Positions 35,880 to 54,236 of a DNA stretch of 64,000 nt are shown here, one piece after another. A program made the translations under genes and the position numbers. The stretch covers positions 186,001 through 250,000 of the forward strand of contig NZ_VFML01000001.1 of NCBI RefSeq assembly GCF_006715045.1, written 5' to 3'. The stretch is from Amycolatopsis cihanbeyliensis (lineage in GTDB: Bacteria; Actinomycetota; Actinomycetes; Mycobacteriales; Pseudonocardiaceae). The stretch's first letter is position 1. Each line of letters begins with the position of its first letter. Under the pieces are notes generated by a model that was not told the origin of the DNA, did not search any database, and worked only from the letters and a program-made list of their open reading frames with translations.

Positions 35880-36200
35880 TCAGACGTCGAGCGCCTCGTG
35901 GTTGGCGTACGCGGCCTCGAAATCGAGTCTGGCCTTCCAGTCGGTGATGAAGTCGAACACTTCGGGCAGCTCGGAGAACTTCTGCAGGGCGGCGAGGTTC
36001 TCGGTGCTGAACTGAACGATGGTGGCCGCGGTGAGTCCCCTGGCTCCCTGGTCGGCGGGGAGCGCGAGATGCGGCTTGAGATCGAACCGGTGGACCAGTC
36101 CGGTGCCCATCGCCACCTTGCGCATCGCGGAGAAGAACTCGTCCACCTCGGCCTTGGCGGCGGACTCCGGAAACTTGTACAGCAGCGTGTGAACGATCAT
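35880..36200 (-). CDS. Dabb-type small protein, candidate polyketide cyclase
   Basis: The 106-residue protein (MIVHTLLYKFPES, VDEFFSAMRKVA, LTAATIVQFSTENLAALQKFSELPEVFDFITDWKARL) looks like a Dabb/ferredoxin-like dimeric barrel. This fold includes plant olivetolic acid cyclase, and TcmI-type polyketide cyclases and ABM monooxygenases have the same architecture. ATG 36200 has GGAG 6 nt upstream; the frame opens at 36212 without a better site. It is the last gene of an operon with an ACP 12 nt upstream, so a folding or oxidation step on the ACP-bound chain is plausible but inferred. Confidence 0.62.
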   Translation of the reverse strand: MIVHTLLYKFPESAAKAEVDEFFSAMRKVAMGTGLVHRFDLKPHLALPADQGARGLTAATIVQFSTENLAALQKFSELPEVFDFITDWKARLDFEAAYANHEALDV

Positions 36201-36212
36201 GTCGTGCTCCAA

Positions 36213-36464
36213 TCAGTGCGGGGTGGCGGGTGCGGCGGCTGCTACCAGGTCGAGCAGCTCGCGCGGGGTGCTCAGGCCGATGACGTCGTCGTCGGCGATC
36301 GTCACGCCGAACTCCCTGGTGATGCGCGCCGCGGTCTCCATGAGGGCCAGCGAGTCGTAGCCGAGGTCGGCGAACGGCCGGTCCAGGATGTCGCCACCGA
36401 GGTCGCCGTTCTCGTCCTCACCGGCGCACTCGGCCAGGATTCTGCGCAGGTCGTCGATGGTCAT
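36213..36464 (-). CDS. Acyl carrier protein (type II PKS), ACP1
   Basis: The 83-residue acidic protein has the phosphopantetheine site in FADLGYDSLALMETA (Ser38), and the sequence MTIDDLRRILAECAG is typical of aromatic polyketide ACPs. It would carry the growing poly-beta-keto chain for the KS-alpha/CLF pair encoded at 50.6-53.1 kb. Its ATG overlaps the stop of the upstream hydroxylase gene (ATGA). Confidence 0.92.
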   Translation of the reverse strand: MTIDDLRRILAECAGEDENGDLGGDILDRPFADLGYDSLALMETAARITREFGVTIADDDVIGLSTPRELLDLVAAAAPATPH

Positions 36465-38089
36465 GACGTGTGGATCACTCCTTGCCGGTCTGCGGAACGG
36501 GCTTCTTCTGTCGTTCCCGGCTCGCCGAACCAGGACGCCAGCGCGGTGCGCAGCTGCGCGGCGTGGAACGGTGCGTCCGGCGGGAGCGCCCAGGCGACGC
36601 AGCCGTCCGGGCGCAGCAGCAGCGCGTCGGCATCGGTGCGGGCGACCGGGCCGATCGCGGTGGCGGCCGTCCGGCGCACCCTGGCTGCCCACGGTGCCGC
36701 GGCGGCGGAGACCGCGGACCCGGCCCGCAGGTCCACGAGCACCCCACGCCCGTCGAACAGCGTCGCCAGCCGGGTCTTCCCGGTGGCCCCCGAGTCGTCG
36801 GTGGCGACACTCAGCTCGGCATCCCCGATCAGCGTGCCGACCAGCGGGTGCGCCGAGCCGAGCGGGTAACGGACGTCCATCCCGGCCAGCATGTCGGCGA
36901 TAAGCCGGTGCACGTCGTCCAGCTCGAACAACTCGTCGAACAGCTCACGCAGCGCGCTGCTCTGCGGATCCGACCTGATCAGGGCGATCTGCGCCTTGGT
37001 GTTCTGCAGCAGCCGCTCCGCGACCGGGTGGCGCTCGCCCCGGTAGCTGTCCAGCAGCCCGCTCGGGGCCCAGCGGTGGACCTGCGCGGCGAGCTTCCAG
37101 CCCAGGTTCGCGGCATCGGTCAACCCGACGTTGAGCCCTTGACCACCGACCGGTGCGTACATGTGCGCGGCATCGCCGCACAGCAGGACCCGCCCCCTTC
37201 GGTACTCACTGGCCTGCCGGGCCGGGTCGGTCCAGCGGATGCCGGACGTGAAGTTGGCCAGGGTCACCGGCCGACCGCTCACCCTGCGGATACTGTCCTG
37301 CATCTCCTCGCGGGTCAGCGGCCGGTCCTCCGCGGGCGGCCCGGAGCCGAACTCGGCGGTGGTCAGCCGGTTCAGCCCGAGCCCGTACACGTACGCGCCC
37401 TCCGGCGTGAAGTGCACCCCTGGCGTGAGCCGCGCGTCCTCGGCCAGCTCCACGACGGCCACGCGACCGGTCATGCTGGGGTCGGTTCCCGGGAAGTCGA
37501 AGCCCGCCAGCCCGCGGACCGTGCTGGTGGTGCCGTCGCAGCCGACCAGGTACTGGGTCCGCAGCCGGTAGGTACGGCCCTGGGTGCTGACCGTCACGGC
37601 CACGCACTCCTCGTCCTGCTCCACCCCGACCACCTCGTGCTCGCGGTGGAGCACGACCCCGAGTTCATCGGCATGCCGCCACAGCAGGTCCTGCAGTACG
37701 GGTTGTTCGAGCCGGACCCGGCGACGCTCCGGGCTGGTGCGGCGCGCGGGATCGATCCGTTCCAGGCCACCGAAATGTTCCTTGGGCTCACTCGGCGACG
37801 CACCATCCTGCCCGGCCGCACGCGCCCAGGCGGCGAACATGCGCTCGTACTCGGCCAGCGTCCTTTCCTCGGCGGCCAGCACCGGCTCGCCGAGGCCCAG
37901 CCGGTCCAGCACCTCGAAGGCCAGCGGGCCCATCGACCCGGCCCAGCCCCGCGACGTGGCGTCCGGCCCGGCCCTGCGCTCCAGCATCAACACCGACACA
38001 CCGGCCCGGCGCAGCTCGCAGGCCAGCACCGTGCCGACCGGTCCGGCCCCGGCGACGACCACGTCGTACTCGAAACCTGTGCTTCTCAC
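36461..38089 (-). CDS. FAD-dependent aromatic polyketide hydroxylase 1
   Basis: The 542-residue protein is a class A flavoprotein monooxygenase (PHBH/RdmE/PgaE-like). The FAD motif GxGxxG is AGAGPVGTVLACEL (about 13-26), the DG motif is VGCDGTTSTVR, the GD motif is RVLLCGDAAHMYAPVGGQGLNVGLTDAANLGWKLA (Asp near 310), and a thioredoxin-like C-terminal domain follows. It would hydroxylate an aromatic polyketide intermediate using NAD(P)H and O2. GTG 38089 overlaps the amidase stop. Confidence 0.88.
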   Translation of the reverse strand: MRSTGFEYDVVVAGAGPVGTVLACELRRAGVSVLMLERRAGPDATSRGWAGSMGPLAFEVLDRLGLGEPVLAAEERTLAEYERMFAAWARAAGQDGASPSEPKEHFGGLERIDPARRTSPERRRVRLEQPVLQDLLWRHADELGVVLHREHEVVGVEQDEECVAVTVSTQGRTYRLRTQYLVGCDGTTSTVRGLAGFDFPGTDPSMTGRVAVVELAEDARLTPGVHFTPEGAYVYGLGLNRLTTAEFGSGPPAEDRPLTREEMQDSIRRVSGRPVTLANFTSGIRWTDPARQASEYRRGRVLLCGDAAHMYAPVGGQGLNVGLTDAANLGWKLAAQVHRWAPSGLLDSYRGERHPVAERLLQNTKAQIALIRSDPQSSALRELFDELFELDDVHRLIADMLAGMDVRYPLGSAHPLVGTLIGDAELSVATDDSGATGKTRLATLFDGRGVLVDLRAGSAVSAAAAPWAARVRRTAATAIGPVARTDADALLLRPDGCVAWALPPDAPFHAAQLRTALASWFGEPGTTEEARSADRQGVIHTS

Positions 38090-39606
38090 GTGTCCCTCCT
38101 CAACGGCAGATCGGTTCCCTCGTTCAGCGGTGGTGGCTGGAAGCCCCCGGTCAGCTCCGCCACGCGCGTGGCGATGTCGAGTACCGTGCGGTCCTCAAGC
38201 CGGGGGCCGATCACCTGCAGGCCGATGGGTAGCCCGGCCGGGCTACGGCCGGCGGGCACGCTCGCCGCGGGCAGCCCCGCCATCGAGGCCAGGCAGCTCC
38301 AGCGGATCTGGTCCAGGTACGGCCGCGGTTGGCCGTTCACCGTGATCCGCCGCGCGGCGACGTCCGGGGTGGTGTCGTGCGGAATGGCCGGCACCGGCGA
38401 CACGGGACACAGCAGGGCGTCGTACTCGGTGAAGAACTCGTGCCAACTCGCCCGCTGCCGAGCTCGCTGCTCGTCGGCGAGCAACCAGTCCCGGTGTCGT
38501 TGCGTACGGCCGCGGAGTTGCCACGCCTCGAACGAGTCGTCCTCGGCGCCGAGCTCACCGGCCCGCACGCAGTCGTGTTCGAACACCTCCTGCGGCGGCG
38601 CCAGGCAGGTCGCGCCGTGCAGCAGGCGCAGGTAGAGCCGGTCGTGCTCGGCGCGGTCGACCGGGCGGGTCTCGGCGACCCTGCCGCCGGCCGTGGCCAG
38701 GGCGTCCACCGCGGCCTGCAACACCTCGCCGACGGCGGCTTCGACCGGGCACAGCGGATCGTCGAGCCACACGCCGATCCGGTATCCGGACAGGCTGCGC
38801 GCTCGCGGCGGCGGCAGCACCAGCCGCCAGCCGCCGGCCCGCGTGCGGGCGGGCCCGGTGAGCACGTCCAGCGCAAGCTCCAGATCCCGGGCGGTGCGCG
38901 CGATCGGCCCGACGGTGACCATGTCGTTACTGGTCAGTGAGCCGGGGGCACGGGGGATGTGCCCCCGCGCCGGCACGATCCCGTGGCTGGGCCGCAGGCC
39001 GAACACGCCGCAGCAGTGAGCGGGCAACCGGATGGAACCGGACAGCTCGCTGCTGAGGTCGAGTGCGGTGAACCCGGCGGACACCGCGGCCGCCGCACCT
39101 CCCGACGAGCCTCCCGGGCTGCGCCCGGGATCCCACGGGTTACGGGTCGTGCCGAACACGGGGTTGGTGGTCTGCGCGTCGGCGGCGTAGGTCGCCGCGT
39201 TGGTCTTGCCGACCAGCACCGCGCCCGCCGCGCGCAGCAGCCCCACCGCATCGGCGTCCACGTCCGGGATATGCCCGGCGAGTTCCGCGGCCCCGGCCGT
39301 GCTGCGTAACCCCGCCGTCTCCAGGGTGTCCTTGACCGTGACCGGGAGCCCGTGCAGCGGTCCGAGCCACGCACCGCGGGCCGCCGCGGTGTCGGCCTCG
39401 GCCGCCCGCGCCCTGGCGCCGTCCTCGTCGAGGGTGGCCACCGCCACCAGCTCCGGGTTGAACCGCCGGATGCGTCCCAGGTGCACCTCGAGCAGCTCTG
39501 TGCTGGACACCTCCCGCCGCGCCAGCGCCGCGAGCTGCTCCCCGGCCGGCCACATGCCCAGTTCGGGTCCGTCCGTGCCCTGGCATCCGGTGGCCTGCCC
39601 GGTCAC
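38086..39606 (-). CDS. Amidase-signature family enzyme in the PKS operon
   Basis: The 506-residue protein has the amidase signature with Lys92 (VTVKDTLETAG), GGSSGG (165-170) and the nucleophile Ser191 in SGSIRLPAHCCG, so the Ser-Ser-Lys triad is preserved. The usual D-x-GGS before the nucleophile is replaced by E-L-SGS. It hydrolyses or forms an amide or ester. GTG 39606 overlaps the upstream hydroxylase stop (GTGA), and its own stop overlaps the next gene, so it is an integral part of the operon. It may trim or transfer an amide on the polyketide or its starter; the role is unknown. Confidence 0.85.
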   Translation of the reverse strand: MTGQATGCQGTDGPELGMWPAGEQLAALARREVSSTELLEVHLGRIRRFNPELVAVATLDEDGARARAAEADTAAARGAWLGPLHGLPVTVKDTLETAGLRSTAGAAELAGHIPDVDADAVGLLRAAGAVLVGKTNAATYAADAQTTNPVFGTTRNPWDPGRSPGGSSGGAAAAVSAGFTALDLSSELSGSIRLPAHCCGVFGLRPSHGIVPARGHIPRAPGSLTSNDMVTVGPIARTARDLELALDVLTGPARTRAGGWRLVLPPPRARSLSGYRIGVWLDDPLCPVEAAVGEVLQAAVDALATAGGRVAETRPVDRAEHDRLYLRLLHGATCLAPPQEVFEHDCVRAGELGAEDDSFEAWQLRGRTQRHRDWLLADEQRARQRASWHEFFTEYDALLCPVSPVPAIPHDTTPDVAARRITVNGQPRPYLDQIRWSCLASMAGLPAASVPAGRSPAGLPIGLQVIGPRLEDRTVLDIATRVAELTGGFQPPPLNEGTDLPLRRDT

Positions 39607-41099
39607 CGCCACACCCCCGCGGGCCCGAACCAGCGGTGCAGTGCCGCGTGCAGCGCGTCCTTGTCCCCGCTCCGGCCCGCTCCGACCCAGGCGACGTGAC
39701 CGTCCGGGCGTACCAGGACCGTGGCGGCGCCGTCCGGCCAGTCCCGCGGCTCGGTGACGGCCACCGTGTCCACCCGGTCCGACCAGCCCTCGGCAAGCCC
39801 GAGCAGGGCCGGATCCGTGTCGACGTCCAGCAGCAGCCCGCGGGCCGGGTGCAGCAGGCGCGTGGAGCTGGTGGCCACACCGCCGGCCACCAGCTCCCGG
39901 TGCGGCAACCGGGCGCCGAGCAGGTCGTGCGAGGCGTCCCCGCAGCCGACGTCGTAGCGCACGGTCAGCGCGCTGACCCGGCCGGCGAGGAGCCGGTTGG
40001 GCCGTTCGAACCGCAGCAGGTCGGCGAAGACCGAGCGCAGCGCGGCGGACTCCGGCCCGCCTGCGAGCAGCGCGAACTGGGCCTGCGTGTCGGTGAGCAC
40101 CTGCGCGGCCACCGGTGCGCGCTCCCGCTCGAAACTGTCCAGCAGACCGGGCGGGGCCCAGCCGTGCACCGCCGCGGCCAGCTTCCAGCCGAGGTTGACC
40201 GCGTCCTGCACACCGAGGTTGAGACCCTGACCCGCGGCGGGCATGTGCACGTGGGCCGCGTCGCCGACGAGCAGGACCCGGCCCCTGCGGTAGGTCTCCG
40301 CCTGCCGTGCCGCGTTGCCGAACCGGGTGCACCAGCGAGGGGTCGCCTCGCTGATGTCCAGGTCCCCGATCCGCCGCGCCAGCGCGCAGATCTCCGCGAA
40401 CGGCGGCGGTTCCCGGTCACCGGAGGGTTTCCGGCCGAACTCGTAGAGGATCACCCGGTACGCGTCCGGCAGGACCGGCAGCACCAGCAGGTGCCCCACC
40501 TCGTTACGCCGGATGTACGGGATCTCCGTACGAAACGGCGTGTGTTCGGGCACGTCGGCCACGTCCGCCGAGAGCAGCTCGACGGTTCGCGCGGTGCCGG
40601 GAAAGTTGATTCCGGCCAGCTTGCGTACGGTGCTGCCGGCTCCGTCGCAGCCCGCCAGCCACTGGGCATCCAGCCGGTACTCGCCCGCGGGCCCGGCCAC
40701 GGCGACCTCGACCCCACCGTCGCGCTCGTGGAACCCGGTCAGCGCGTGCCCCCGGCGTAGCTCGGCCCCCAGTTCGGTGGCCCAGTTGCCGAGCTCCCGC
40801 TCGGTGTGGGTCTGTGGGATCAGCCGCATGCCGAACCGGGTGTCCAGCGGCGCGAACTCGATCGGTGCCAGCCCGCCCGAGTAGCCGTAGCGGGGGACGG
40901 TGGGCCCGGCGAACCGGTCCGCGACACCGCGCTGGTCCCAAACCTCGACCGTTCGGGCATGCACCCCGATCGCGCGCGCCTGGCCGGTCGGCTCGGCCAG
41001 GCGTTCCAGCACGACCACGTCGACCCCGGCCAGCCGGAGTTCCGCGGCGAGCATCAGCCCGACCGGACCCGCGCCCGCGATGACGACCTGGGTGCTCAT
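39603..41099 (-). CDS. FAD-dependent aromatic polyketide hydroxylase 2
   Basis: The 498-residue class A monooxygenase has AGAGPVGLMLAAEL (about 8-21), LAGCDGAGSTVRKLAG, and GRVLLVGDAAHVHMPAAGQGLNLGVQDAVNLGWKLAAAV. It is similar to, but diverged from, hydroxylase 1, and lacks a long insertion after residue 70, so the two probably act at different positions or stages. ATG 41099 overlaps the stop of ACP2. Confidence 0.88.
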   Translation of the reverse strand: MSTQVVIAGAGPVGLMLAAELRLAGVDVVVLERLAEPTGQARAIGVHARTVEVWDQRGVADRFAGPTVPRYGYSGGLAPIEFAPLDTRFGMRLIPQTHTERELGNWATELGAELRRGHALTGFHERDGGVEVAVAGPAGEYRLDAQWLAGCDGAGSTVRKLAGINFPGTARTVELLSADVADVPEHTPFRTEIPYIRRNEVGHLLVLPVLPDAYRVILYEFGRKPSGDREPPPFAEICALARRIGDLDISEATPRWCTRFGNAARQAETYRRGRVLLVGDAAHVHMPAAGQGLNLGVQDAVNLGWKLAAAVHGWAPPGLLDSFERERAPVAAQVLTDTQAQFALLAGGPESAALRSVFADLLRFERPNRLLAGRVSALTVRYDVGCGDASHDLLGARLPHRELVAGGVATSSTRLLHPARGLLLDVDTDPALLGLAEGWSDRVDTVAVTEPRDWPDGAATVLVRPDGHVAWVGAGRSGDKDALHAALHRWFGPAGVWR

Positions 41100-41365
41100 G
41101 CGGTCGTTTCGGCGCCGTCGGCGAGCCGTGCGTTCACCGTGTCCAGCGTTCGCCTCGGGGTCGTCATCTGGTCCACCTGGTCGTCGGTGACGGCCACCGC
41201 GAAGTTGTCCTGGATCCGGGTCACCAGCTCGTAGAGGGTCAGCGAGTCCACACCGAGCTCGTCGTAGGTCGTGTCCAGGTTGTGCTCGTACAGCGGGATG
41301 GCGTTACCGGCTCCCAGGCTCGCGTCCAGGGCGTCCTGCAGGTCGGCGAAGGTGAAGGTGCGCAA
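41096..41365 (-). CDS. Second acyl carrier protein, ACP2 (starter-unit type)
   Basis: The 89-residue acidic protein carries the phosphopantetheine site in ELGVDSLTLYELV (Ser41). The TTG 41365 start is chosen because GAGGAGGA lies just upstream and no ATG or GTG fits. It is the first gene of the minus-strand operon and is divergent from KAS III. In R1128- and frenolicin-type pathways a dedicated second ACP works with KAS III and an acyltransferase to make the starter; that role is inferred. Confidence 0.85.
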   Translation of the reverse strand: MRTFTFADLQDALDASLGAGNAIPLYEHNLDTTYDELGVDSLTLYELVTRIQDNFAVAVTDDQVDQMTTPRRTLDTVNARLADGAETTA

Positions 41366-41415
41366 CGTGTCCTCCTCGCTCCGGCGGTTCACCCCACGAC
41401 CATCGGCAGGTGGGC

Positions 41416-41556: not shown

Positions 41557-42582
41557 GTGGCGGTGACACTGCGCACTGGGACAGGGGCCAGAAGCAGCCG
41601 AATCATGGGTCTGGGGACGTACCGGCCGCACCGGGAGGTGTCCAACACCGAACTGTGCGAGGCGATCGACTCCACCGAGGAGTGGATCGAGACCCGATCC
41701 GGCATCATCCACCGGCGCTTCGCCGGACCGGCGGAGACGCTGCGGGCGATGGCGACCTCGGCCGGGCGCGCGGCGCTGGCGCACGCGGGGCTGGCCGCCG
41801 AGCAGGTCGACTGCGTCGTGCTGGCGACCCTGACCAACCTGGTGCAGACCCCGCCCGGGGCGTTCGCCGTGGCCCGTGACCTCGGGGCGGTCCATGCGGC
41901 CGGGTTCGACCTTTCCGGTGCCTGCGCCGGGTTCTGCCAGGCGCTGGCCGTGGCCAGCGACGCGGTGTGCCTGGGTAACGCCGAGTACGTGCTGGTGATC
42001 GGTGCTGAGCGGATGACCGACGTCGTTGACCCCAGCGACCGCACGGTGGCGTTCATGTTCGCCGACGGTGCGGGGGCGGTGGTGGTCGGGCCGTCCGAGC
42101 GACCGGGTATCGGGCCCGTCGTGCGCGGTTCGGACACGTCCGGTTGGGCGGCGGTGTGGATGAGCTCGAGCTGGACGGACTTCGCCGACGATCCTGCCGC
42201 CGGCCGGCCGTCGCTGCAGATGGACGGTCGCAAGGTGTTCCGGTGGGCGGTGGACTCCGTCGTGCCCGCGGCCAGGTGTGCGGTCGAGCGTGCGGGTATC
42301 GGGTTGGCCGAGCTGTCCGCGTTCATCCCGCACCAGGCCAACCTCCGGATCGTCGATCTGATCGCCGACCGGCTCGAGCTGCCGAGCCAGGTCGCCGTGG
42401 CGCGCGACGCCGCCCACTCCGGCAACACCTCCGCGGCGTCGGTCCCGCTGGCGATGGACCGGCTGATGCGGGACGGAGGCGTGGCCCCCGGCGACGCCGC
42501 GTTGCTGATGGGCTTCGGTGCCGGGCTCAACTACGCGGGCCAGGTCGTGCTGCTGCCACCCGCCCCTGCCGATGCGGACTGA
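41557..42582 (+). CDS. Beta-ketoacyl-ACP synthase III (starter-unit KAS III)
   Basis: The 341-residue protein has the KAS III triad Cys123 (DLSGACAGFCQAL), His259 (FIPHQANLR) and Asn290 (HSGNTSAAS). It condenses an acyl-CoA starter with malonyl-ACP, so the aromatic polyketide probably begins with a non-acetate primer, as in R1128, frenolicin and benastatin. GTG 41557 has GGAGGAGG about 10 nt upstream; the frame is open back to 41410 without a site. It overlaps the flavin reductase gene downstream and is divergent from ACP2. Confidence 0.92.
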   Translation: MAVTLRTGTGARSSRIMGLGTYRPHREVSNTELCEAIDSTEEWIETRSGIIHRRFAGPAETLRAMATSAGRAALAHAGLAAEQVDCVVLATLTNLVQTPPGAFAVARDLGAVHAAGFDLSGACAGFCQALAVASDAVCLGNAEYVLVIGAERMTDVVDPSDRTVAFMFADGAGAVVVGPSERPGIGPVVRGSDTSGWAAVWMSSSWTDFADDPAAGRPSLQMDGRKVFRWAVDSVVPAARCAVERAGIGLAELSAFIPHQANLRIVDLIADRLELPSQVAVARDAAHSGNTSAASVPLAMDRLMRDGGVAPGDAALLMGFGAGLNYAGQVVLLPPAPADAD

Positions 42583-43147
42583 CCCGCGGGACGGCGGCCG
42601 CGCGCGGGCGACCGCCGTGGCCGGGGACGAGTTCCGCGCCGCGATGGCCAGGTACGCGGCGGGAGTGACCGTGGTGACCACCAGCGACGAGCACGGCGGC
42701 AGGTACGGCTTCACCGCGAGCTCGTTCTGCTCGGCGTCCGCGGAACCACCACTGGTGCTGGTATGCGTCGACCGCTCGGCCCTGTCCTTCCCCGCGTTCC
42801 GTACCTGCCGGTCGTTCGCCGTCAGTGTCCTGGCCGAGGAGCAACGCGATGTGGCGCGCCGGTTCGCCACCAGCGGTGCGCGGAAGTTCGTGCCGGACCA
42901 GTGTTCGACCACGCCGCTCGGCCTGCCCTCGGTGCGCGGGGCGCTGTGCGTGCTCGACTGCCTCGCCCGGGACCGGCACGAGGCGGGGGACCATGTGATC
43001 CTGGTCGGCCTGGTGATCCACGCGGCACTGGCGGAGGGCCTGCCGATGGTCTGGTTCGACCGTGACTTCCGGCGGATCGAACGTCCCCCGCCGCGCCGGA
43101 TCACACGTCCCGGCGCCGGAGGACCACGGCCGCGCTCGCCAGGATGA
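42572..43147 (+). CDS. Flavin reductase (two-component hydroxylase partner)
   Basis: The 191-residue protein belongs to the flavin reductase-like FMN-binding family: RYAAGVTVVTTSDEHGGRYGFTASSFCSAS, ALSFPAF and a DVARRF segment. It supplies reduced FMN/FAD to a separate oxygenase, most likely the acyl-CoA-dehydrogenase-like hydroxylase at 49427-50554 in the same cluster (ActVB with ActVA-ORF5 is the known pair). ATG 42572 overlaps the KAS III stop. Its 3' end overlaps the convergent permease gene by 47 bp. Confidence 0.88.
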   Translation: MRTDPRDGGRARATAVAGDEFRAAMARYAAGVTVVTTSDEHGGRYGFTASSFCSASAEPPLVLVCVDRSALSFPAFRTCRSFAVSVLAEEQRDVARRFATSGARKFVPDQCSTTPLGLPSVRGALCVLDCLARDRHEAGDHVILVGLVIHAALAEGLPMVWFDRDFRRIERPPPRRITRPGAGGPRPRSPG

Positions 43148-43955
43148 CCAGGACGTAGCCGCCGAGGACGGCGAACCCGGTCAACGGTTCGAGCAGTTCG
43201 CGATCGTTCGGCACCGACATGAACGCCACCGACATGGACGCCCGGCCCGCCGTCGACGGCAGGTAGGGAACCACGACGTCCGCGACCGAGCCCGGCAACA
43301 GTAACGGTGCCAGCGAGTCCAGCAGGAACATCACGAAGGCGATCGTGGAGAAGGCGAGCACCGTACTGCGCATCAGCACGGCCACGGAGATGGCGAGCAC
43401 GCCCACCGCGGCGAGGTAGGTGGGGGTGGCGAGTACCGCACGCAGCACGCCGGGATCACCGAGGGAGGGCGCGACCCCGTGCGCCGACAGCGGCACGCTG
43501 CCGGCGAAGAACGCGACCAGCGTGGCGAGCAGGGTCAGGCCGAACACCACCCCGCCGTAGACCAGGCACTTCGCCCACAGCATCGGCAACCGCGTCGGGA
43601 CGGCCGACGAGGTGGCTCTGATCATGCCCGTGGAGTACTCGACGGACACGTAGAGCACGCCGATCGCGCCGACCAGCAACTGCGCGAACACGGCCCCGTT
43701 GAGGGTCGCCTCGGCCGGGCTGGTCGGGATGAACGGTGCGCCGTCCGGCTCGGTGCCGGCGGCGAACGTCTCGCCCATCGAGCTGGACATGATCAGGCCG
43801 ACGCCGACGAGTACCACCATCGCCAGCGGCAGGCCGATCGTGGTCGACCGGACGGACCTGAGTTTGATCCACTCCGACGTGCTCACCCTGGCCAGTGAGA
43901 CGCCGGGGACGTGGGGCGCGGGGGCAGGCGTGGGGACAGGCGCGGGGGCAGCCAT
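43101..43955 (-). CDS. ABC-2 type transporter permease
   Basis: The 284-residue protein has about six TM segments after a Pro/Ala-rich N terminus (EWIKLRSVRSTTIGLPLAMVVLVGVG, then TM helices to the end). It is the membrane half of the ATPase encoded just upstream (overlap at ATG 43955), and resembles bacitracin/antibiotic-peptide-type export systems. With the adjacent two-component genes it may sense and export a toxic product. Confidence 0.82.
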   Translation of the reverse strand: MAAPAPVPTPAPAPHVPGVSLARVSTSEWIKLRSVRSTTIGLPLAMVVLVGVGLIMSSSMGETFAAGTEPDGAPFIPTSPAEATLNGAVFAQLLVGAIGVLYVSVEYSTGMIRATSSAVPTRLPMLWAKCLVYGGVVFGLTLLATLVAFFAGSVPLSAHGVAPSLGDPGVLRAVLATPTYLAAVGVLAISVAVLMRSTVLAFSTIAFVMFLLDSLAPLLLPGSVADVVVPYLPSTAGRASMSVAFMSVPNDRELLEPLTGFAVLGGYVLVILASAAVVLRRRDV

Positions 43956-44872
43956 CAGACCCTCCCGAGGCTCGGCGAGCGGTACTCGACCGCGTCGTGG
44001 GTGAGCTCGAGGAAGGCCTCCTCGAGCGAAGCCTGGGCCGTCGTGAGCTGGTGCAGCGGGATACCCTCGGCAGCCGCCACGTCGCCGATCCGCTCCGCGG
44101 TGAGGCCTTCCACCTCGAGTTCCACCGGGCTGACCGTGGTGACGGTGACGTCCGGGCCGAACAGGGCCCGCCGCAACCGGGCCACCTGTGGCGAGCGAAC
44201 CGACACCCGGTGGCCGGAGATCGCCCCGATCAGGTCGGCGAGCGGCAGGTCGGCGATCAACCTGCCCTTGCCGATGACGACCACCTGGTCGGCGATCTCG
44301 GCCATCTCCCGCATCAGGTGTGAGGACACGAAAACGGTGCGGCCCTCGTCGGCGAGCCGGTTCAGCAGGTCGCGGATCCAGATGATGCCCTCCGGGTCCA
44401 GACCGTTCACCGGCTCGTCGAGCAACACCGTCGAGGGGTCGCCGAGCAGGGCCGCGGCGATCCCCAGCCGCTGGGCCATGCCGAGGGAGAAGCCGCCTGC
44501 CCGGCGATGCGCTGCGTCGGTCAGCCCGACGAGCTCGAGCACCTGTGTCACCCGCCGCTTGCCGATGCCGTTGCTGGCGCCGAGCGCGTGCAGGTGATGG
44601 TAGGCCGAACGGCCGTGGTGGGTGGCGGTCGCCTCGAGCAGCGCGCCGATCTCGCGAAGCGGGGCCTGGTGCTGGTCCGGCGCGGCGCCGTTCACCCGTA
44701 CCGTTCCCGTGGTCGGCGCGTGCAACCCGAGGATCATGCGCATCGTCGTCGACTTGCCCGCCCCGTTGGGACCGAGGAAACCGGTGACGACACCGGGGCG
44801 GACGGTGAAGGTCAGCCCCTCCACGGCGAGCGTGGAGCCGTATCGCTTGCTGAGGTTCTCGACTTCAATCAT
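43955..44872 (-). CDS. ABC transporter ATP-binding protein
   Basis: The 305-residue ATPase has Walker A GPNGAGKSTTMRMI (about 37-50), signature FSLGMAQRLGIA, Walker B STVLLDEPVNGLDP, and a switch His in VSSHL. It resembles antibiotic-resistance exporters of the BcrA type. ATG 44872 starts a two-gene operon with the permease; a 59-nt gap separates it from the response-regulator gene, so four genes may be co-transcribed. Confidence 0.9.
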   Translation of the reverse strand: MIEVENLSKRYGSTLAVEGLTFTVRPGVVTGFLGPNGAGKSTTMRMILGLHAPTTGTVRVNGAAPDQHQAPLREIGALLEATATHHGRSAYHHLHALGASNGIGKRRVTQVLELVGLTDAAHRRAGGFSLGMAQRLGIAAALLGDPSTVLLDEPVNGLDPEGIIWIRDLLNRLADEGRTVFVSSHLMREMAEIADQVVVIGKGRLIADLPLADLIGAISGHRVSVRSPQVARLRRALFGPDVTVTTVSPVELEVEGLTAERIGDVAAAEGIPLHQLTTAQASLEEAFLELTHDAVEYRSPSLGRV

Positions 44873-46942: not shown

Positions 46943-47434
46943 GTGACGCACGCAGAGCACACCGTGACCGTCGAGGCCTCGCTCGCCGAGGTCTGGGCCG
47001 TCCTGGTGGACGTCGAGCGGTACGCCGACATCTTCCCGCCGACCCAGGACGTCACGATCGTGGAGGAGGGCGATGGCTACCAGGTCATCAAGCTGACCGT
47101 CGAGGTCAACGGCGAGGTGCACACCTGGAAGTCACGGCGGGACGTGGACGAGGAACGTCACGTTATCGCCTACCGGCAGGTGGAGACCGCCCCGCTGGTG
47201 GACCGGATGGCAGGCGAGTGGCGGGCGTTCTCACTCGGCCCGGTGACCACCCAGCTCGTGCTCACCCACGACTACGCCGTACGCGAGCCGGTGGACGGCA
47301 AGGTGGCCGGCCGATTCACCCCGGAGGAGGCCGAGACGGTGCTGCACAACGCGGTCGAACGGAACAGCGTCGCGGACCTGGGGGCGGTCAGGCAGGAGGC
47401 CGAGCGCCGCCAGGCGACGGTCCCGGGCCGATGA
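46943..47434 (+). CDS. START/SRPBCC polyketide cyclase-aromatase (single domain)
   Basis: The 163-residue protein has the SRPBCC fold (VTVEASLAEVWAVLVDVERYADIFPPTQDVTI, VHTWKSRRDVDEERHVIAYRQ, WRAFSLGPVTTQLVLTHDYAV), similar to monodomain aromatase/cyclases of type II polyketide pathways such as TcmN-type or WhiE-ORFVI-like. It would guide the first ring closure. A single-domain enzyme fits a pathway without a ketoreductase. GTG 46943 has GGAG 5 nt upstream. Its stop overlaps the next cyclase start (ATGA). Confidence 0.82.
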   Translation: MTHAEHTVTVEASLAEVWAVLVDVERYADIFPPTQDVTIVEEGDGYQVIKLTVEVNGEVHTWKSRRDVDEERHVIAYRQVETAPLVDRMAGEWRAFSLGPVTTQLVLTHDYAVREPVDGKVAGRFTPEEAETVLHNAVERNSVADLGAVRQEAERRQATVPGR

Positions 47435-48192
47435 GCCAGATCATCGACCTGTCGGTACCCACCGAGGACAGTCCCAGCGAGGCCACCCCGGTCACCGTGG
47501 AGGTCCTGGACCACCGTACGGGCGCGACGGTCCTGGGGCTGACCCCGGAGGACTTTCCCGGCGGGATGGCCATCTCCAACGAGACGGTCACGCTCACCTC
47601 GCACACCGGCACCCACATGGACGCCCCGTTGCACTACGGGCCGACCAGCGGTGGGCGACCCGCGCGGAGCATCGACCAGGTACCGCTGGAATGGTGCCAT
47701 GGCCCCGGCGTCCGGCTGGACCTGCGGCACGTGCCCGCGGGCGAGGAGATCACCGTCGACCACCTCACCGACGCGCTCCAGGTGGCGGGGCACCGGCTGG
47801 GTGCCGGCGACATCGTGTTGCTGTGGACCGGTGCGGACACCTTGTGGGGCACCGCGGCGTACCTGAGCGACTACCCGGGTCTCGGCGGGAAGGCCACCGC
47901 GTTCCTGGTGGAGCAGGGCGTCCGGGTGATCGGGATCGACGCGTGGGGACTGGACCGGCCGATGCGGGCCATGATCGAGGAGTACCGCCGCACCGGCGAC
48001 CGGGACTGCCTGTGGCCCGCGCACGTGTACGGGCGCACGAGGGAGTACCTGCAACTGGAGAAGCTCGCCAACCTCGGTGGGTTGCCCGCCCCGACAGGCT
48101 TCACGGTGTGCTGTTTCCCGGTCGCGATAGCCGGCGCCGGGGCCGGCTGGACCAGGGTGGTGGCGATACCGGAGCAAAAACGTGCGAAGTAA
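47431..48192 (+). CDS. Metal-dependent cyclase family protein (PF04199-like)
   Basis: The 253-residue protein has the metal-binding signature SHTGTHMDAPLHY (His58, His62, Asp64, His68), shared with kynurenine formamidase and with late ring cyclases of some aromatic polyketides. It probably closes a later ring or opens/hydrolyses an intermediate. It is translationally coupled to the START cyclase, and a strong hairpin lies about 100 bp downstream. Confidence 0.83.
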   Translation: MSQIIDLSVPTEDSPSEATPVTVEVLDHRTGATVLGLTPEDFPGGMAISNETVTLTSHTGTHMDAPLHYGPTSGGRPARSIDQVPLEWCHGPGVRLDLRHVPAGEEITVDHLTDALQVAGHRLGAGDIVLLWTGADTLWGTAAYLSDYPGLGGKATAFLVEQGVRVIGIDAWGLDRPMRAMIEEYRRTGDRDCLWPAHVYGRTREYLQLEKLANLGGLPAPTGFTVCCFPVAIAGAGAGWTRVVAIPEQKRAK

Positions 48193-48588
48193 CCGCCACG
48201 ACACTGTGTCCTATTACCGAGGAGATCGAAAGTGGCTGGACCGGGCCATGTGACCGATATGTGAGCGATGCCTGAGCCGGTGCGGGCAAGCTTCAGGAAT
48301 GGTGGCCATCGCCGGACAGGCCGGCGGTGGCCACCTGAAGCCTTCTGGGGAGTCATCCGTAGCGGCCGGTGATGACTGGGATATCACCAGTACATCATGT
48401 GCCGACAACGTGGTCCGGCAACAGCCAGCCTGGCCGGCGGTGACGAGTTGCGTACAGTCCGGGTAACAGGTTCCCGGAGTTCACTGAGGGGGCTCGCGGC
48501 GACCGCACGCGGGGAAGACGCGGACGCCGAGACACCTCGTGAGCAGGCGCGACACCCGGACTCGAAGCCGAGTACGAGCGAGGATGTC
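48193..48588. other. Intergenic region between cyclases and SARP
   Basis: These 396 bases hold a long hairpin (48290-48341), a second smaller imperfect repeat near 48350-48376, and the SARP ribosome site. The frame is open upstream of the SARP start but without domain similarity. Confidence 0.45.
48290..48341. terminator. Long hairpin after the cyclase operon
   Basis: GCTTCAG (48290) pairs with CTGAAGC (48335-48341), and GGTGGCCA (48301) pairs with TGGCCACC (48327-48334), with an inner CCGG/CCGG pair around an ACAGG loop and a four-base bulge. No T-run follows, as is usual for GC-rich terminators. Confidence 0.55.
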
Positions 48589-49404
48589 ATGCATATCGGA
48601 CTGCTGGGTGTTCTGCAATTTTCAATCAACAACGTCTCCATAGTCCCGTCGGCGCGAAAAATAAGGAACTTACTCGCGTTACTCTCGCTGAACGCGGGAA
48701 ATTTGGTGACCGTCAGCAAGATCCGCGAGGAACTCTGGGGAGACGAACCGCCACGCAGTGCGAGCACCACACTACAGACGTACGTCATGCAGTTGCGAAA
48801 TCGCATATCGCGATCGGTGGACGATCAACATAATGGCGACGTCGCGAGAAATATTCTGATTACCGCCCCGAATGGGTACTTGCTCCGGGCTGGGGACGGC
48901 TGCTGTGACGCCATCGAGTTCGACCGGCTGGCCGCGTGGGGCAACCGGCTCCTCGACAACGAGGAGCACCACGGCGCCGCCGAGGCGCTGCGGGCGGCAC
49001 TCGCGCTCTGGCGCGGTCCCGCGCTCGTCGACATCGAGACCGGCCCCGTGCTGACCGGCGAGGTCATCCGGCTGGAAGAACGCAGGCGCCTGATCGTGGA
49101 ACGGCGGATCGAGCTCGAACTGCTGCTCGGCCGGCATCACGCCATCGTCGACGACCTCTCCGCGCTGGCCGCGCTGGACCGCACCCACGAGAGCGTGCAC
49201 GGGCAGCTCATGGTCGCGCTGTACCGCTGCGGGCGGCGGACCCAGGCCCTCGAGGTGTTCAGCAGGCTCCGCACGGCCATGCTGGACGAACTCGGGTTGG
49301 AGCCCGCACCGTGGCTGCACGAGCTGCAGCGCGCCGTGCTGGACGCCGAGCCGGGCCTCGAGCTGGAGTCCTATGGCATTCGAGGGCTGCTCGCCAGGCG
49401 GTGA
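48589..49404 (+). CDS. SARP family pathway-specific activator
   Basis: The 271-residue protein has an OmpR-type winged helix (about 5-95: RNLLALLSLNAGNLVTVSKIREELWG, STTLQTYVMQLRNRI) and a bacterial transcriptional activation domain (about 105-255). Such SARPs bind 11-bp-spaced TCGAG-like repeats and recruit RNA polymerase, and several such repeats lie ahead of the PKS operons here. GAGGATG precedes ATG 48589. Two rare TTA codons (48670-48672 and 48679-48681) suggest bldA-type control. The first 280 bases are clearly more AT-rich than the neighbours. Confidence 0.9.
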   Translation: MHIGLLGVLQFSINNVSIVPSARKIRNLLALLSLNAGNLVTVSKIREELWGDEPPRSASTTLQTYVMQLRNRISRSVDDQHNGDVARNILITAPNGYLLRAGDGCCDAIEFDRLAAWGNRLLDNEEHHGAAEALRAALALWRGPALVDIETGPVLTGEVIRLEERRRLIVERRIELELLLGRHHAIVDDLSALAALDRTHESVHGQLMVALYRCGRRTQALEVFSRLRTAMLDELGLEPAPWLHELQRAVLDAEPGLELESYGIRGLLARR

Positions 49405-49408
49405 CCCG

Positions 49409-49424: not shown

Positions 49425-49426
49425 AC

Positions 49427-50554
49427 TCAGCCGCCGTCGAGCAGGGCCCGCGCGTGCAGGTCGGCGTTGCGCTCCCAGCGCAGCACCGCATGGGAGGTGG
49501 CTCCGTGCACATCCCGCCAGATCCGCTGCAGGGGGCTCGCGGAGTCCTGGGCCTGGCCACCGCCGGCCAGGAAGGCCCGGTGCACGGCATCGCGCAGCAG
49601 CCGCGCCGCGAACGCCGCGTCCCTTGCGCCGCGGGCGGCAACGTCGGCGCCGACCGGGGTGGCCGTGTCCGTCGCCGCGCAGGCACGGTGGACCAGCATG
49701 GCAGCGGAGTCGATCTCGGCACCGGCCATGGCGATCGCCTCGAGTGCGGCCGGTTCGCGCGCCGTTTCGGGCCTGGCCGCGGTCAGCTCGACCAGGTGTC
49801 GCAAGGCCGCCCTGGCGGCACCGACCGACACCGAGGCGAACAGCGGCGGGGCGGCACCGAGTAGCGGCACCCGGTGGCAGGCCTGCGCGCCGGCGCCCGC
49901 GGCACCAGCGATGAGCGCGGCACGCGAGAACACCCGATGCTCGGGCACCAGCACCCCGTCCAGCACCACCGTGTGGCTTCCGGTGGCCCGCATACCGACC
50001 GTGTCCCAGGTGTCCCGGACCGCGAAGTCGGACCGGGGCACGGCGAAGAACCGGGCCTCGGATTCCCGCGCACCACCGGCCGGCGCGCACAGCAGCGCCC
50101 AGGTGGCGTGATCGACCGCACTGACCGGCCGCCACGAGCCGCTGAGCAGCCAACCGCCGGGAGCGGGCTCGACCTCCCCCGAGGGGACGAGACCGGCGAC
50201 GATGGCGGTGTCCGGCCCTTCCGCCCACACCTCCCGCTGGCCCTCCGGCGGCAGGTAGGCGGCCATCCGGCCGGACGTAGCGTAGATCAGCCCGCACCAG
50301 GCGGCGGAAAGGCACCCGCCGCCCACGGCGTCGAGCGCATCGGCGAGCTCGGTGAACCCGCCCGCGGTGCCGCCCCGGGCACTCGGCACGAAATGCCGGG
50401 CGAACCCCGCTCGCAGCAGGGCTTCCGCGACCTCGGGGGTCAGCCGGCGCCGGGACTCGCCCTCGGCGGCATCGGCCGAGGCCGCCGCGACGAGGTCCGC
50501 GGTGCACAGTTTCCTGGCCTGGGGTACGGGCGTCGGCAGTTGGTTGATGGGCAC
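49427..50554 (-). CDS. Acyl-CoA-dehydrogenase-fold flavin-dependent hydroxylase
   Basis: The 375-residue protein has the acyl-CoA dehydrogenase fold (FVPSARGGTAGGFTELADALDAVGGGCLSAAWCG, GGWLLSGSWRPVSAVDHATWALLCA, WDTVGMRATGSHTVVLDGVLVPEHRVF) but resembles group D oxygenases such as HpaB/ActVA-ORF5. These use reduced flavin from a reductase to hydroxylate phenolic polyketides. The reductase encoded at 42572-43147 is the obvious partner. It follows the CLF gene by 9 nt in the KS operon. Confidence 0.84.
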   Translation of the reverse strand: MPINQLPTPVPQARKLCTADLVAAASADAAEGESRRRLTPEVAEALLRAGFARHFVPSARGGTAGGFTELADALDAVGGGCLSAAWCGLIYATSGRMAAYLPPEGQREVWAEGPDTAIVAGLVPSGEVEPAPGGWLLSGSWRPVSAVDHATWALLCAPAGGARESEARFFAVPRSDFAVRDTWDTVGMRATGSHTVVLDGVLVPEHRVFSRAALIAGAAGAGAQACHRVPLLGAAPPLFASVSVGAARAALRHLVELTAARPETAREPAALEAIAMAGAEIDSAAMLVHRACAATDTATPVGADVAARGARDAAFAARLLRDAVHRAFLAGGGQAQDSASPLQRIWRDVHGATSHAVLRWERNADLHARALLDGG

Positions 50555-50563
50555 GGTCCCTCC

Positions 50564-51787
50564 TCAGTTGGTCGCGCGGACGACGAGCGCGGCGTTGAAG
50601 CCGCCGTGCCCCCTCGCCAGCACGAGGGCGGAGCGCACCGGCGCGCCACGGCCGCGCCGGCACACCAGGTCCATCCGGTGCTGGTACGCCGGCGAGTCGA
50701 CCGGGCCGGACGGCGGGATCACCTGGTCCCGCAACGCCAGCAGGGCAGCCGCGACGTCCAGCGGGGGGCCGCCGGCGGACAGCCGTCCGAAGGCGGCCTT
50801 CGGCGCGGTGACCGGTACTCCGGCCGGTCCGAAAACCTGCTCGATCGCGGCCGACTCCAGCCGGTCCCGCTCCGGTATGCCGGCGGCGTCGGCGAACACC
50901 ATGTCGATCTCGGCCGGCACCATCCCCGCGTCGGTGATGGCCGCTCGCGCGGCCCGCGCCAGCCCGGGTGGACGAGTCGAGCCCGGTGGCGGATCGAACG
51001 TCGCGGCGTACCCGGCGATCTCGCCGCAGGGCTCCGCGCCCCGAGCGCGCGCCGCCGACTCCTCCTCGAGAACCAGTATCGCGCCGCCCTCGCCTGGCAC
51101 GTACCCACCGGCCTCGGCGTGGAACGGTCGGTAGGCCAGCCCCGGGTCCGGCTCCGTGCTGACCCGGCCAGTGGAGAGGTGACACACCCATCCCCACGGG
51201 TCGAGGGCCGACTCCACCCCGCCGGTCACCGCGAGCGTGCTGCCGGCGAGGATGGTGCGCCGCGCGTGCCCGATCGCGTCCAGCCCGCCCGCCTGCTCGG
51301 CGACCACCACCCCGCTCGGTCCGCGCATCCCGTACCGGATAGAGATCTGCCCGGTGTTCACCGCGTAGAACCAGGCGAACGACTCGTAGACGCTCACGTG
51401 CTCCGGGCCGTTGTTCCACAGCTTGTTGACCTCGGTGTGGGTGAACTCGAAGCCACCCATGGCGTTCGACGTCACCACCCCCATGCCGTACTCGGGGAAC
51501 CCGGAAGGGTCGACGCCCGCGTCGACGAGTGCTTCTTCGGCGGCGGGCAGGGCGAGCCTGGTCACCCGGTCGGTTTGCGGGAGAAGCCTGCCCGGAACAT
51601 GCTGCTCCGCGTCGAAATCCAGCACCTGGCCCGCCACGCGAGCCGGGTACACCGAGCTGTCGTAGCCGGTGAGCCGGTTGAGCCCGACACGCCCTTCCAG
51701 CACCGCCTTCCAGTACCGGTCGATCCCGATCCCGTTCGGCGCGACGGCACCCAGTCCGGTGACCACCACCCTCGGCCGCCCGCTCAT
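50564..51787 (-). CDS. Chain-length factor (KS-beta) of the type II PKS
   Basis: The 407-residue ketosynthase homologue has Gln165 in place of the active-site Cys ([14 protein letters not shown]), the hallmark of chain-length factors. It pairs with KS-alpha to set polyketide length and make the first decarboxylation. Its ATG overlaps the KS-alpha stop (ATGA), as in nearly all aromatic PKS clusters. Chain length cannot be read by eye. Confidence 0.95.
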
Positions 51788-53052
51788 GCCGCCACCGCCC
51801 GCGGCCCGCGCAGCACCATGGCGCTCTGGAACCCGCCGAAACCGCTTCCGACGCACAGCACTGTGTCCACTGTGGTCTCTCGAGCGGTCAGCGGGACGTA
51901 GTCCAGATCGCATTCGGGGTCCTGCTCGTGCAGGTTCGCGGTGGGCGGCACGACGTCATGCTCGATGGCGAGGGCGCACGCGGCGATCTCGAGGGAACCG
52001 ATCGCACCGAGCGAGTGACCGAGCATCGACTTGATCGAGCTGACCGGAACCCGGTAGGCATGCTCGTGCAGCGCCCGCTTGAACGCCGCGGTCTCGTGCC
52101 GGTCGTTCTGCTTGGTGCCCGACCCGTGCGCGTTGACGTAGTCGACGTCGGTCGGCGCGGCCCGCGCCTGGTCGAGTGCGGCGACGATCGCCTCGGCCAT
52201 CTCCCGGCCGTCGGCTTTGAGCCCAGTCATGTGGTAGGCGTTGCACCGCGTGGCGAACCCTTCGACCCCGGCATAGATCCGGGCACCGCGGCGGACGGCG
52301 TGCTCGTAGGACTCGAGGACGAGTACCGCGGCGCCCTCGCCGAGCACGAAGCCGTCCCGGGTCCGGTCGAAGGGGCGGGAGGCGTGCTCCGGGTCGTCGT
52401 TACGTGGCGAGGTCGCCTTGATCGCGTCGAAACAGGACACCGCGATCGGCGAGATGGGGGCTTCGGTCGCGCCGGTCAGCACGACATCCACCGTTCCGTC
52501 GCCGATCAGCTGTGCGGCGTAGCCGACGGAGTCCACACCGGACGTGCAGCCCGAGGACACGATGCAACCGGGACCCTCGGCGCCGACCACCCAGGCGACC
52601 TCCGCCACGAGCGCGCCCGGGGTGAAGTAGTCGTACAGGTGCGGGGTCGAGTACTCGAGATCGACCTGCCATTTCCGACCGGTGTTCGACAGCACGAGGT
52701 ACTCCCGCTCGAGGCTGGTCGTGGCGCCCACCGCGGTGCCCAGCGCGACCCCCATCCGGTGCGGGTCGATGCGCCCGGTGTCGAGGCCGCTGTCCTCGAC
52801 GGCGGCGCGAGCACTGGTGACCGCGAACTGGGTGGCCCGGTCCATCCGCCGGATCTCGCGGAACGAGAGGCCCATCGACGTGGCGTCGAAGTCGCACTCC
52901 GCGGCCATCCGAGAACGGAACGGAGCGGGGTCGAAGGCCGTGATGCGGCGGGTCGCGCTGCGCCCGGCGGTCAGCGAGTCCCAGAACGCGTGAGTGCCCG
53001 TTCCCCCCGGCGCCACGACCCCGATCCCCGTGATTACCGCTGTTCGGTTCAC
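51784..53052 (-). CDS. Ketosynthase alpha (KS-alpha) of the type II PKS
   Basis: The 422-residue KS has Cys169 ([13 protein letters not shown]), His309 ([11 protein letters not shown]), Lys341 and His346 ([12 protein letters not shown]), a complete condensing-enzyme active site. With the CLF and ACP it builds the poly-beta-ketone from malonyl units. GTG 53052 follows GGAGGAG; a run of in-frame codons upstream (ATG 53064) overlaps that ribosome site and is rejected. It leads the operon KS-alpha, CLF, hydroxylase. Confidence 0.96.
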
Positions 53053-53101
53053 CGTCTCCTCCATACTTCGTGGGTCCGGCCCCGAAGATGGCGACGCCGA
53101 C

Positions 53102-53117
53102 TCGAAACCGGCTCGAG
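53102..53117 (-). promoter_or_regulatory. SARP-type direct repeat ahead of KS-alpha
   Basis: TCGAA (53102) and TCGAG (53113) are spaced 11 bp and lie 50-65 bp upstream of the KS-alpha start on the minus strand, the position usual for SARP sites. Confidence 0.55.
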
Positions 53118-53146
53118 GACGGGTCGCTCGCGGGAGCGAGCGCGGT

Positions 53147-53162
53147 CCGAGCCCGCCTCGAG
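53147..53162 (+). promoter_or_regulatory. SARP-type direct repeat ahead of the acyltransferase
   Basis: CCGAG (53147) and TCGAG (53158) are spaced 11 bp and lie 58-73 bp upstream of ATG 53220 on the plus strand, mirroring the site for KS-alpha. Confidence 0.5.
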
Positions 53163-53219
53163 CGACGGCGGGCAGGGTCGCAGGCGCCAACCCACTGACC
53201 GTTTCGGGAAGGAGTCCGC

Positions 53220-54236
53220 ATGGCCGGACGCCCAGTCGCCCTGCTGCTGCCGGGACAGGGCGCGCAGTACCCGGGGATGGCCGCTGAGCTCTACGGCACC
53301 GAGCCGGCGTTCACCGGCGCTATGGACGATGTCTTCGGACTCCTCGGCGAGGAGGGCGCGAGGATACGTGCGGACTGGCTCAGCGACGAACCGGCGGTGC
53401 CGATCGACGACGCCGTGCGCGCGCAACCGTTGCTGTTCGCCATCGGCTACGCGGCGGGCCAGGCGTTGCGGGCGGGTGGGATCCGGCCCGACGTGCTGCT
53501 CGGGCACAGCGTGGGCGAGCTCGTCGCGGCCGTACTGGCCGGGGTCATCGACCTCCCGGGATGTGCGCGACTACTGCTCGCCAGATCGGCCGTGCTGGTG
53601 GACGTGCCCGCGGGCGGCATGCTCGCCGTCGCGGCGGCCCCGCGCGACGTAGCCCCTTTCCTGCGGGAGGCGTACCCGCACGTGGTACTCGGCGCCGTCA
53701 ACGCACCGCGGCAGGTCGTGCTGGCGGGCACCGAGCCCGAATTGTCCACAATAGAGCACGAGCTGTCGACGGCCGGGTTCCGGTGCGCGCGGGTGCTTTC
53801 CCGACAACCGTTCCACAGCCCCGCCGTCCGGCAGGCAGCGCGGCGGCTGGCGGTGGTGGCGGCCAGGCTCGAACTGCGGTCGCCGCGCGTGCCCATCCGG
53901 TCGACAAGGACGGGCCGGCTGGTCACCTCAACCGAGGCGACCGACCCGACGTTCTGGACCCACCAGGTCGCCGAACCGGTCCTGTTCTGGCCCGCGCTGG
54001 AGGGGCTGCTTGGTACGGGGAACTACCTCCTGGTCGAATCCGGCCCCGGTGCGGGACTGACGACCCTTGCCCGTCGCCATCCGAAGGTGCGCTCAGGGCA
54101 CAGCGAGGTGCTGGCCCTCTCACCACCTGGTGCGGCGGGAACGCTCGAAACATGGCGCTCGGCGATCCGCAGGTTGCCGATCGCCGAGCCGGTCCACGAA
54201 CCGCGCAAGCTGTGGTACTCCGGCCGCACTTCGTAG
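53220..54236 (+). CDS. Malonyl/acyl-CoA:ACP transferase
   Basis: The 338-residue protein has the acyltransferase oxyanion motif [11 protein letters not shown], nucleophile Ser97 in GHSVGE, and a later RQPFHSPAV His. Free acyltransferases are rare in type II PKS clusters and usually accompany non-acetate starters (DpsD, ZhuC). It may load the starter ACP, or remove acetyl primers as ZhuC does. GGAAGGAG precedes ATG 53220. Downstream lies IS debris. Confidence 0.9.

Follow-up and report, generated by a model that had tools for sequence, protein, structure and literature searches.

A predicted R1128-type polyketide gene cluster combined with a RubC-type oxygenase in Amycolatopsis cihanbeyliensis

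A 64,000-nucleotide stretch of Amycolatopsis cihanbeyliensis DNA (the window; positions 186001-250000 of a large contig in a 7.4-Mb genome) carries, at ~30955-54236, an uninterrupted type II polyketide cluster of 22 genes, running from a large SARP regulator through an acyltransferase. By sequence kinship, the polyketide synthase (PKS) core, the starter module, both cyclases, the amidase and one of the flavin adenine dinucleotide (FAD) oxygenases are of the R1128 (zhu) type, and they are accompanied by an oxygenase related to RubC of the rubrolone pathway. We read the cluster, with modest confidence, as an R1128-type pathway with two extra oxidative steps, the product of which would be an alkyl-primed, hydroxylated R1128-like anthraquinone. 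Gene content, kinship and motifs are observations, from which each reaction and the product are inferred. Genes were called from codon-position G+C and domains were assigned with Pfam, 49 of the 57 called window genes being scanned. The loci used for comparison include those of S. echinoruber (L009/L106) and D. vinaceum (L015/L105/L102), which are presumably rubrolone clusters; both species are named as rubrolone producers in the available parts of PMC5059770 and in reference titles of PMC9099902. Uncharacterised loci came from S. boncukensis (L016 and L104) and from two Nonomuraea genomes (L044 and L049, 21 kb each).

The kinship with R1128 is seen in the oxygenase FAD1 (36461-38089, reverse strand; FAD_binding_3/Rng_hyd_C), which is of ZhuM type and 62% identical to the R1128 oxygenase Q9F6C9. 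In a tree of 44 of the 119 listed matches besides the window's own, together with the locus copies, FAD1 falls inside a 16-row clade containing the R1128 enzyme, with a support of 100 in the Shimodaira–Hasegawa-like approximate likelihood ratio test (SH-aLRT). A second tree, built for the other FAD hydroxylase of the cluster (FAD2) and excluding matches of fewer than 300 residues and the duplicate L106, groups FAD1 with the R1128 and S. boncukensis enzymes (99), and the FAD enzymes of rubrolone and rubterolone producers form a separate group in both trees (93 and 82, respectively). On these trees FAD1 appears to belong to the R1128 side of the ZhuM/RubB family, apart from the rubrolone/rubterolone enzymes. 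The available text of PMC5059770 calls ZhuM and RubB cytochromes P450 and reports 55% identity between them. Unlike that label, the R1128 protein filed as an oxygenase (Q9F6C9) carries FAD-binding domains (FAD_binding_3); the S. echinoruber homologue of FAD1 is 54.7% identical to it, near the published value.

The amidase gene (38086-39555, reverse strand) encodes a protein 64% identical to the R1128 'enantiomer selective amidase' Q9F6D0. In the portion of PMC340942 available, ZhuJ is Q9F6D2 and ZhuN is Q9F6C8, and because of the accession order between these two we infer that the amidase Q9F6D0 is ZhuL and the oxygenase Q9F6C9 is ZhuM. The catalytic triad is present in the window protein, with Lys75-Ser150-Ser174 matching the spacing in ClbL, which is also the best PDB match (E 6e-73). 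According to the available part of PMC10478638, ClbL joins a carrier-protein β-ketothioester to an aminoketone; that ZhuL-type amidases act on a polyketide bound to an acyl carrier protein (ACP) is our guess. In the two rubrolone-producer genomes the best amidase matches reach only 36% (S. echinoruber) and 38%. The amidase was ruled out as evidence for a new pathway or an amide starter, since R1128 has one, and a wider family of amidase clusters was also set aside, the two matches examined for it, in genomes G1152 (60%) and G754 (55%), having no matches to the window PKS nearby. The original prediction did not recognise the gene set as that of a known compound, a view that the R1128 set, amidase and one FAD oxygenase included, does not support. 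A whole-set match of high identity to a characterised cluster, which it had named as refuting, was not seen either: the three R1128 proteins compared stand at 62-70%, and some of the genes are not R1128-like.

In the PKS core, KS-alpha (51784-53064, reverse strand), assigned by Pfam, has the Cys/His/His residues and is 75% and 73% identical to its counterparts in L009 and L015, respectively. The chain length factor (CLF, or KS-beta; 50564-51787, reverse strand) is 70% identical to that of R1128 and carries a VAEQAGG motif, with Gln replacing Cys. At the CLF residue aligned with position 116, by what we take to be act CLF numbering, Val is shared by the window, R1128 and S. boncukensis; Ile is found in L009/L106, L015, L044 and L049, Phe in three otherwise different loci (L072, L107 and L108), and 74 other loci have Phe (31), Leu (25), Ile (9) or Met (3), with six unread. 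ACP1 (36213-36464, reverse strand; PF00550), which adjoins FAD1 as in S. boncukensis, is taken as the elongation ACP from its ZhuN-like position, and ACP2 (41096-41392, reverse strand; PF00550), which is 44%, 40% and 48% identical to the second ACPs of L009, L015 and L104, as the ZhuG-like initiation ACP; both have the DSL serine. A ketosynthase (KS) at genome position 145004 was rejected as a second aromatic PKS, the KAS III-like and ACP genes beside it giving it the look of a housekeeping fatty-acid locus.

The priming ketosynthase KAS III (41557-42582, forward strand) starts with GTG at 41557, preceded by GGAGGAGG, and retains the Cys and His, with the Asn located by eye. Its best PDB sequence match is 1mzj (listed as 'Beta-ketoacylsynthase III', E 3.5e-126; next structure 4e-91), which we take to be ZhuH, and the protein is assigned to the ZhuH type. 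The acyltransferase homologue (53220-54236, forward strand; PF00698), of ZhuC type, has a GHSVG motif and is 52-58% identical to the acyltransferases of L009, L015, L016, L044 and L049. In R1128 biosynthesis, ZhuH, ZhuG and ZhuC prime with propionyl or isobutyryl units (available text of PMC340942), and ZhuC edits acetyl-ACP (PMC12664062, as far as available). The non-acetate starter of the original prediction is upheld in the form of alkyl priming by KAS III, the second ACP and the acyltransferase.

The first-ring aromatase/cyclase (46943-47434, forward strand) has a single START domain and matches 3tfz (listed as 'Cyclase', presumably ZhuI; E 2e-57) far above the next PDB sequence match, 4xrw (E 8e-24). 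It is followed by a second cyclase of ZhuJ/RubE5 type (47431-48192, forward strand; PF04199), which is 78-81% identical to those of L009, L015, L016, L044, L049 and L072. Short-chain ketoreductases, glycosyltransferases and methyltransferases are missing from the Pfam results for the called genes of 30955-54236, in agreement with the predicted absence of a C-9 ketoreductase, glycosyltransferase and methyltransferase. ZhuI and ZhuJ cyclise unreduced chains, as stated in the available text of PMC340942, and the missing C-9 ketoreductase is therefore normal for the R1128 type; a reading of this absence as gene loss was ruled out on the same ground. The components that had been proposed (KS-alpha/CLF, two ACPs, KAS III, a free acyltransferase, two FAD hydroxylases, a two-component hydroxylase, START and PF04199 cyclases and an amidase) are each present by Pfam, and the catalytic motifs of the cluster enzymes look intact in the predicted proteins.

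The RubC-type enzyme (49427-50554, reverse strand) is a flavin-dependent oxygenase of the acyl-CoA dehydrogenase (ACAD) fold, assigned from Pfam, from PDB matches to hydroxylases and from its place in a tree beside rubrolone producers. The tree (60 rows, 55 of them different) was built from 59 tblastn matches in the comparison loci, scoring 120 bits or more at a coverage of 60% or above, leaving out the window's own loci and the short loci L095-L101 and L103, the last being a second S. boncukensis match (32%). The window oxygenase groups with that of S. boncukensis (support 100/94), is joined next by the S. echinoruber and D. vinaceum enzymes (97/80) and then by two from Nonomuraea (100/98), and the other 53 rows lie apart. 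Its likely partner is a flavin reductase (42572-43147, forward strand; PF01613, E 4e-39), the gene of which overlaps that of KAS III, an adjacency found also in loci L007 and L008. The second added oxidative enzyme, FAD2 (39603-41099, reverse strand; FAD_binding_3/Rng_hyd_C), is of PgaE/CabE type, with CabE (2qa2) as best PDB match followed by PgaE, and groups in its tree with an S. boncukensis copy (63% identity). With the R1128-branch FAD1 and amidase standing beside a RubC-type oxygenase, the cluster looks like a natural hybrid of two known pathways rather than an unknown pathway.

The differences from known clusters follow the same division. Streptomyces sp. R1128 shares KS/CLF, the KAS III/acyltransferase/second ACP set, ZhuI- and ZhuJ-type cyclases, the amidase, the FAD oxygenase and the lack of a C-9 ketoreductase, whereas the available parts of the R1128 literature make no mention of a RubC-type oxygenase, a flavin reductase or a PgaE-type FAD2. 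The rubrolone-type loci share the PKS genes, a small DABB-fold protein, the RubC-type oxygenase and a FAD enzyme of the ZhuM/RubB family. In these loci, nitroreductase, luciferase-like and DABB genes were identified by Pfam (L106) and glycosyltransferase- and sugar-like open reading frames (ORFs) by eye; the window cluster, in contrast, is without nitroreductase, glycosyltransferase and sugar genes, has a luciferase-like gene only outside it (20972), possesses the amidase and FAD2, and has its FAD1 on the R1128 side. The Nonomuraea loci resemble the window in KS, CLF, ACP, acyltransferase, both cyclases, DABB protein, RubC-type oxygenase, two-component system and ABC transporter, but within their 21 kb lack the amidase, KAS III and second ACP and have two FAD1-like genes, with a 2-oxoglutarate dioxygenase in L044 and, by eye, RubE7-like and carboxylase-like ORFs.

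S. boncukensis gave 17 reciprocal best hits, all within 30955-54236, when 32 chosen window proteins (of 57) were compared with 23 ORFs of its two contigs, which are broken between the CLF and oxygenase genes that are neighbours in the window. The two clusters share the amidase, FAD1, FAD2, the RubC-type oxygenase, the exporter and regulators. They differ in that S. boncukensis has two FAD2-like genes, no reciprocal match for the two-component system or the second ABC transporter, and no match for the PF01613 reductase; a siderophore-interacting-type flavoprotein (PF04954/PF08021) lies beside its oxygenase and is perhaps a different reductase doing the same job. A literature search found no report of an R1128-type cluster with a RubC-type oxygenase, although such a search misses most subscription papers. 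The R1128-type FAD oxygenase and RubC-type oxygenase occurring together in two genomes separate the two factors, and so make it testable, by expression and single-gene deletion, what steers one aromatic scaffold towards an anthraquinone or a tropolone.

In the pathway that we propose, KAS III would catalyse the condensation of malonyl-ACP2 with a short acyl-CoA, such as propionyl- or isobutyryl-CoA, and host fatty-acid enzymes would reduce the product, while the acyltransferase homologue would edit acetyl-ACP or hand on the primer. KS/CLF would then lengthen the alkyl-primed chain by malonyl units on ACP1. The ZhuI-like cyclase would fold the unreduced chain at C7-C12, perhaps with the DABB-fold protein assisting, and the PF04199 cyclase would close it further. 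Oxidation of the anthrone to the quinone is assigned tentatively to the ZhuM-type FAD1, and the probable task of the amidase is to release or trim an intermediate that is ACP-bound or bears a carboxyl group. Later hydroxyl groups could come from the RubC-type oxygenase with the flavin reductase and from the PgaE-type FAD2, and the predicted end product, which DrrAB would export under SARP activation, is a hydroxylated alkyl-anthraquinone without sugars. The highly oxidised product of the original prediction is probably right.

Several observations weigh against this proposal. The window oxygenase is a relative of RubC, which together with the ZhuM homologue RubB is needed to make a tropolone, not an anthraquinone (PMC5059770, available text), and the closest partner of FAD1 within its clade is a nameless protein (89) rather than the R1128 enzyme. 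The CLF tree places the window protein weakly, with a support of 12 at the fork joining R1128. The R1128 comparison is limited to the CLF, oxygenase and amidase sequences and two further proteins via the PDB. ZhuJ-type PF04199 proteins (66-80%) also occur in the otherwise different loci L072, L107 and L108, and this gene alone is therefore no marker of the R1128 pathway. S. echinoruber also has a partial amidase match (41%, residues 12-238) at 30880 of the rubrolone-type contig, ~11 kb beyond the locus. For the DABB-fold protein, Foldseek ranked hydroxynitrile lyases in rows 1-2 and olivetolic acid cyclase (OAC) in row 3. Finally, the priming unit, chain length and hydroxylation sites are unreadable from sequence.

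We favour the hydroxylated R1128-like anthraquinone over a tropolone, a serious rival that we regard as possible rather than probable. In the latter case, the RubC-type oxygenase and FAD1 (or FAD2) would act on an early ring intermediate to yield a sugar-free aglycone of rubrolone/isatropolone type, with FAD2 oxidising it further. The available text of PMC5059770 reports that deletion of rubB or rubC in the rubrolone pathway yields R1128A; formation of the tropolone ring therefore needs RubB as well as RubC, the latter being one of a pair of enzymes that divert this scaffold to a tropolone. The clade formed with the rubrolone producers and Nonomuraea in the ACAD tree, and the membership of FAD1 in the ZhuM/RubB family, agree with this. 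However, FAD1 sits on the R1128 side, the amidase is characteristic of R1128 and has no close counterpart in the rubrolone producers, and Pfam found no nitroreductase (RubE7), glycosyltransferase or sugar gene among the 49 scanned window genes (an arabinosyltransferase-like cell-wall gene at 12907-15549 being left out of the count), although rubrolone production persists at ~60% without RubE7, which is thus non-essential (PMC5059770, available text). With about the same probability, the cluster could be a natural intermediate of the R1128 and rubrolone pathways that makes a new sugar-free tropolone or a third-branch product, with the DABB-fold protein as a third cyclase complexed with the ZhuI-type cyclase.

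It is unlikely that FAD1 instead cleaves the quinone ring in the manner of a Baeyer-Villiger-type oxygenase, giving a seco-anthraquinone or xanthone-like product that the amidase releases. In favour, FAD1 has as its top PDB sequence match 4k5r (listed as 'Oxygenase', presumably of the MtmOIV family), 23lo (listed as a Baeyer-Villiger monooxygenase) is also matched, and the amidase gene belongs to the same run of overlapping genes (36461-39555). Against these stand the R1128 homologue, which serves a pathway ending in an intact anthraquinone, and PgaE-type hydroxylases, which match FAD1 strongly too (E 2e-75). An aryl primer, which the original prediction had allowed, is highly improbable: a chorismate-binding, salicylate-synthase-like gene nearby (58848-60281) could supply salicylate, but it is followed by genes for a thiazolinyl imine reductase-like and a solute-binding protein in an apparently separate, probably siderophore, operon, and the nearest solved structure to KAS III is that of the ZhuH type.

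The DABB-fold protein (35880-36200, reverse strand), a 106-residue candidate cyclase partner of ferredoxin-like fold, was absent from the components originally listed, and family libraries yielded no name for it. His4 is invariant in all ten rows aligned, and would stand opposite OAC position 5 if the VIA-range start is ungapped. In seven related genomes the protein is tied to a cyclase, as an N-terminal fusion to a ZhuI-like cyclase in two (L072:5000-5845 and L108:9986-10807) and as an adjoining gene in the other five. The fusions offer a handle on a cluster protein that family libraries left nameless.

The cluster had been placed at 35880-54236, where it indeed lies, but its left limit was moved to 30955 because the DrrA/ABC-2 exporter and large SARP genes (30955-35710) each have a reciprocal best hit in the corresponding cluster of S. 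boncukensis. These encode a SARP-type regulator with BTAD, AAA and TPR domains (30955-33933, forward strand; 48%, truncated in S. boncukensis by the contig edge), the ABC-2 permease of a DrrAB-type exporter (33948-34682, reverse strand; 67%) and its DrrA-type ATPase (34748-35710, reverse strand; 65%), all assigned by Pfam. The original span additionally holds an ABC permease without a Pfam match (43101-43955; 64% and 63% to L044 and L049, respectively), an ABC ATPase (43955-44872; PF00005, 66% and 70%), a LuxR-type response regulator (44932-45615; Pfam, 71% and 69%) and a sensor histidine kinase (45612-46709; Pfam, 50% to both), all on the reverse strand, and a SARP activator on the forward strand (48397-49404; BTAD and Trans_reg_C, 53% to its S. 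boncukensis reciprocal best hit).

At E ≤ 1e-80 the PF04199 marker was found in 4 of 394 genomes of the class, and at E ≤ 1e-60 in 8 of 80 genomes of the genus (the window's included in both counts, the others in the genus at 48-55%). The amidase, at E ≤ 1e-140, occurred in two of 397 genomes of the order, the window's own and G1152, and in 9 of 392 genomes in the genus of G443, where G550 (S. boncukensis by coordinates) matched at 67% and the rest at 49-55%.

To the right of the acyltransferase, a thioesterase-domain protein (54806-55603; PF00975) has no reciprocal match in the S. boncukensis contigs. Further on, 58848-64000 and the next 12 kb (L139) hold salicylate-synthase-like, thiazolinyl imine reductase-like and solute-binding genes, unscanned transporter-like ORFs and, beyond the window, a 1806-residue ORF taken as a non-ribosomal peptide synthetase; the whole run looks like a salicylate-type siderophore operon. 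To the left, 20187-26391 contains a methyltransferase gene (20187-20975), a luciferase-like gene (20972-21595), two MFS genes and NmrA-like and Dabb genes, which may form a small cluster of their own, and a match to tryptophan dimethylallyltransferase at 7156-8253 (PF11991, E 1.1e-9) marks a possible prenyltransferase.

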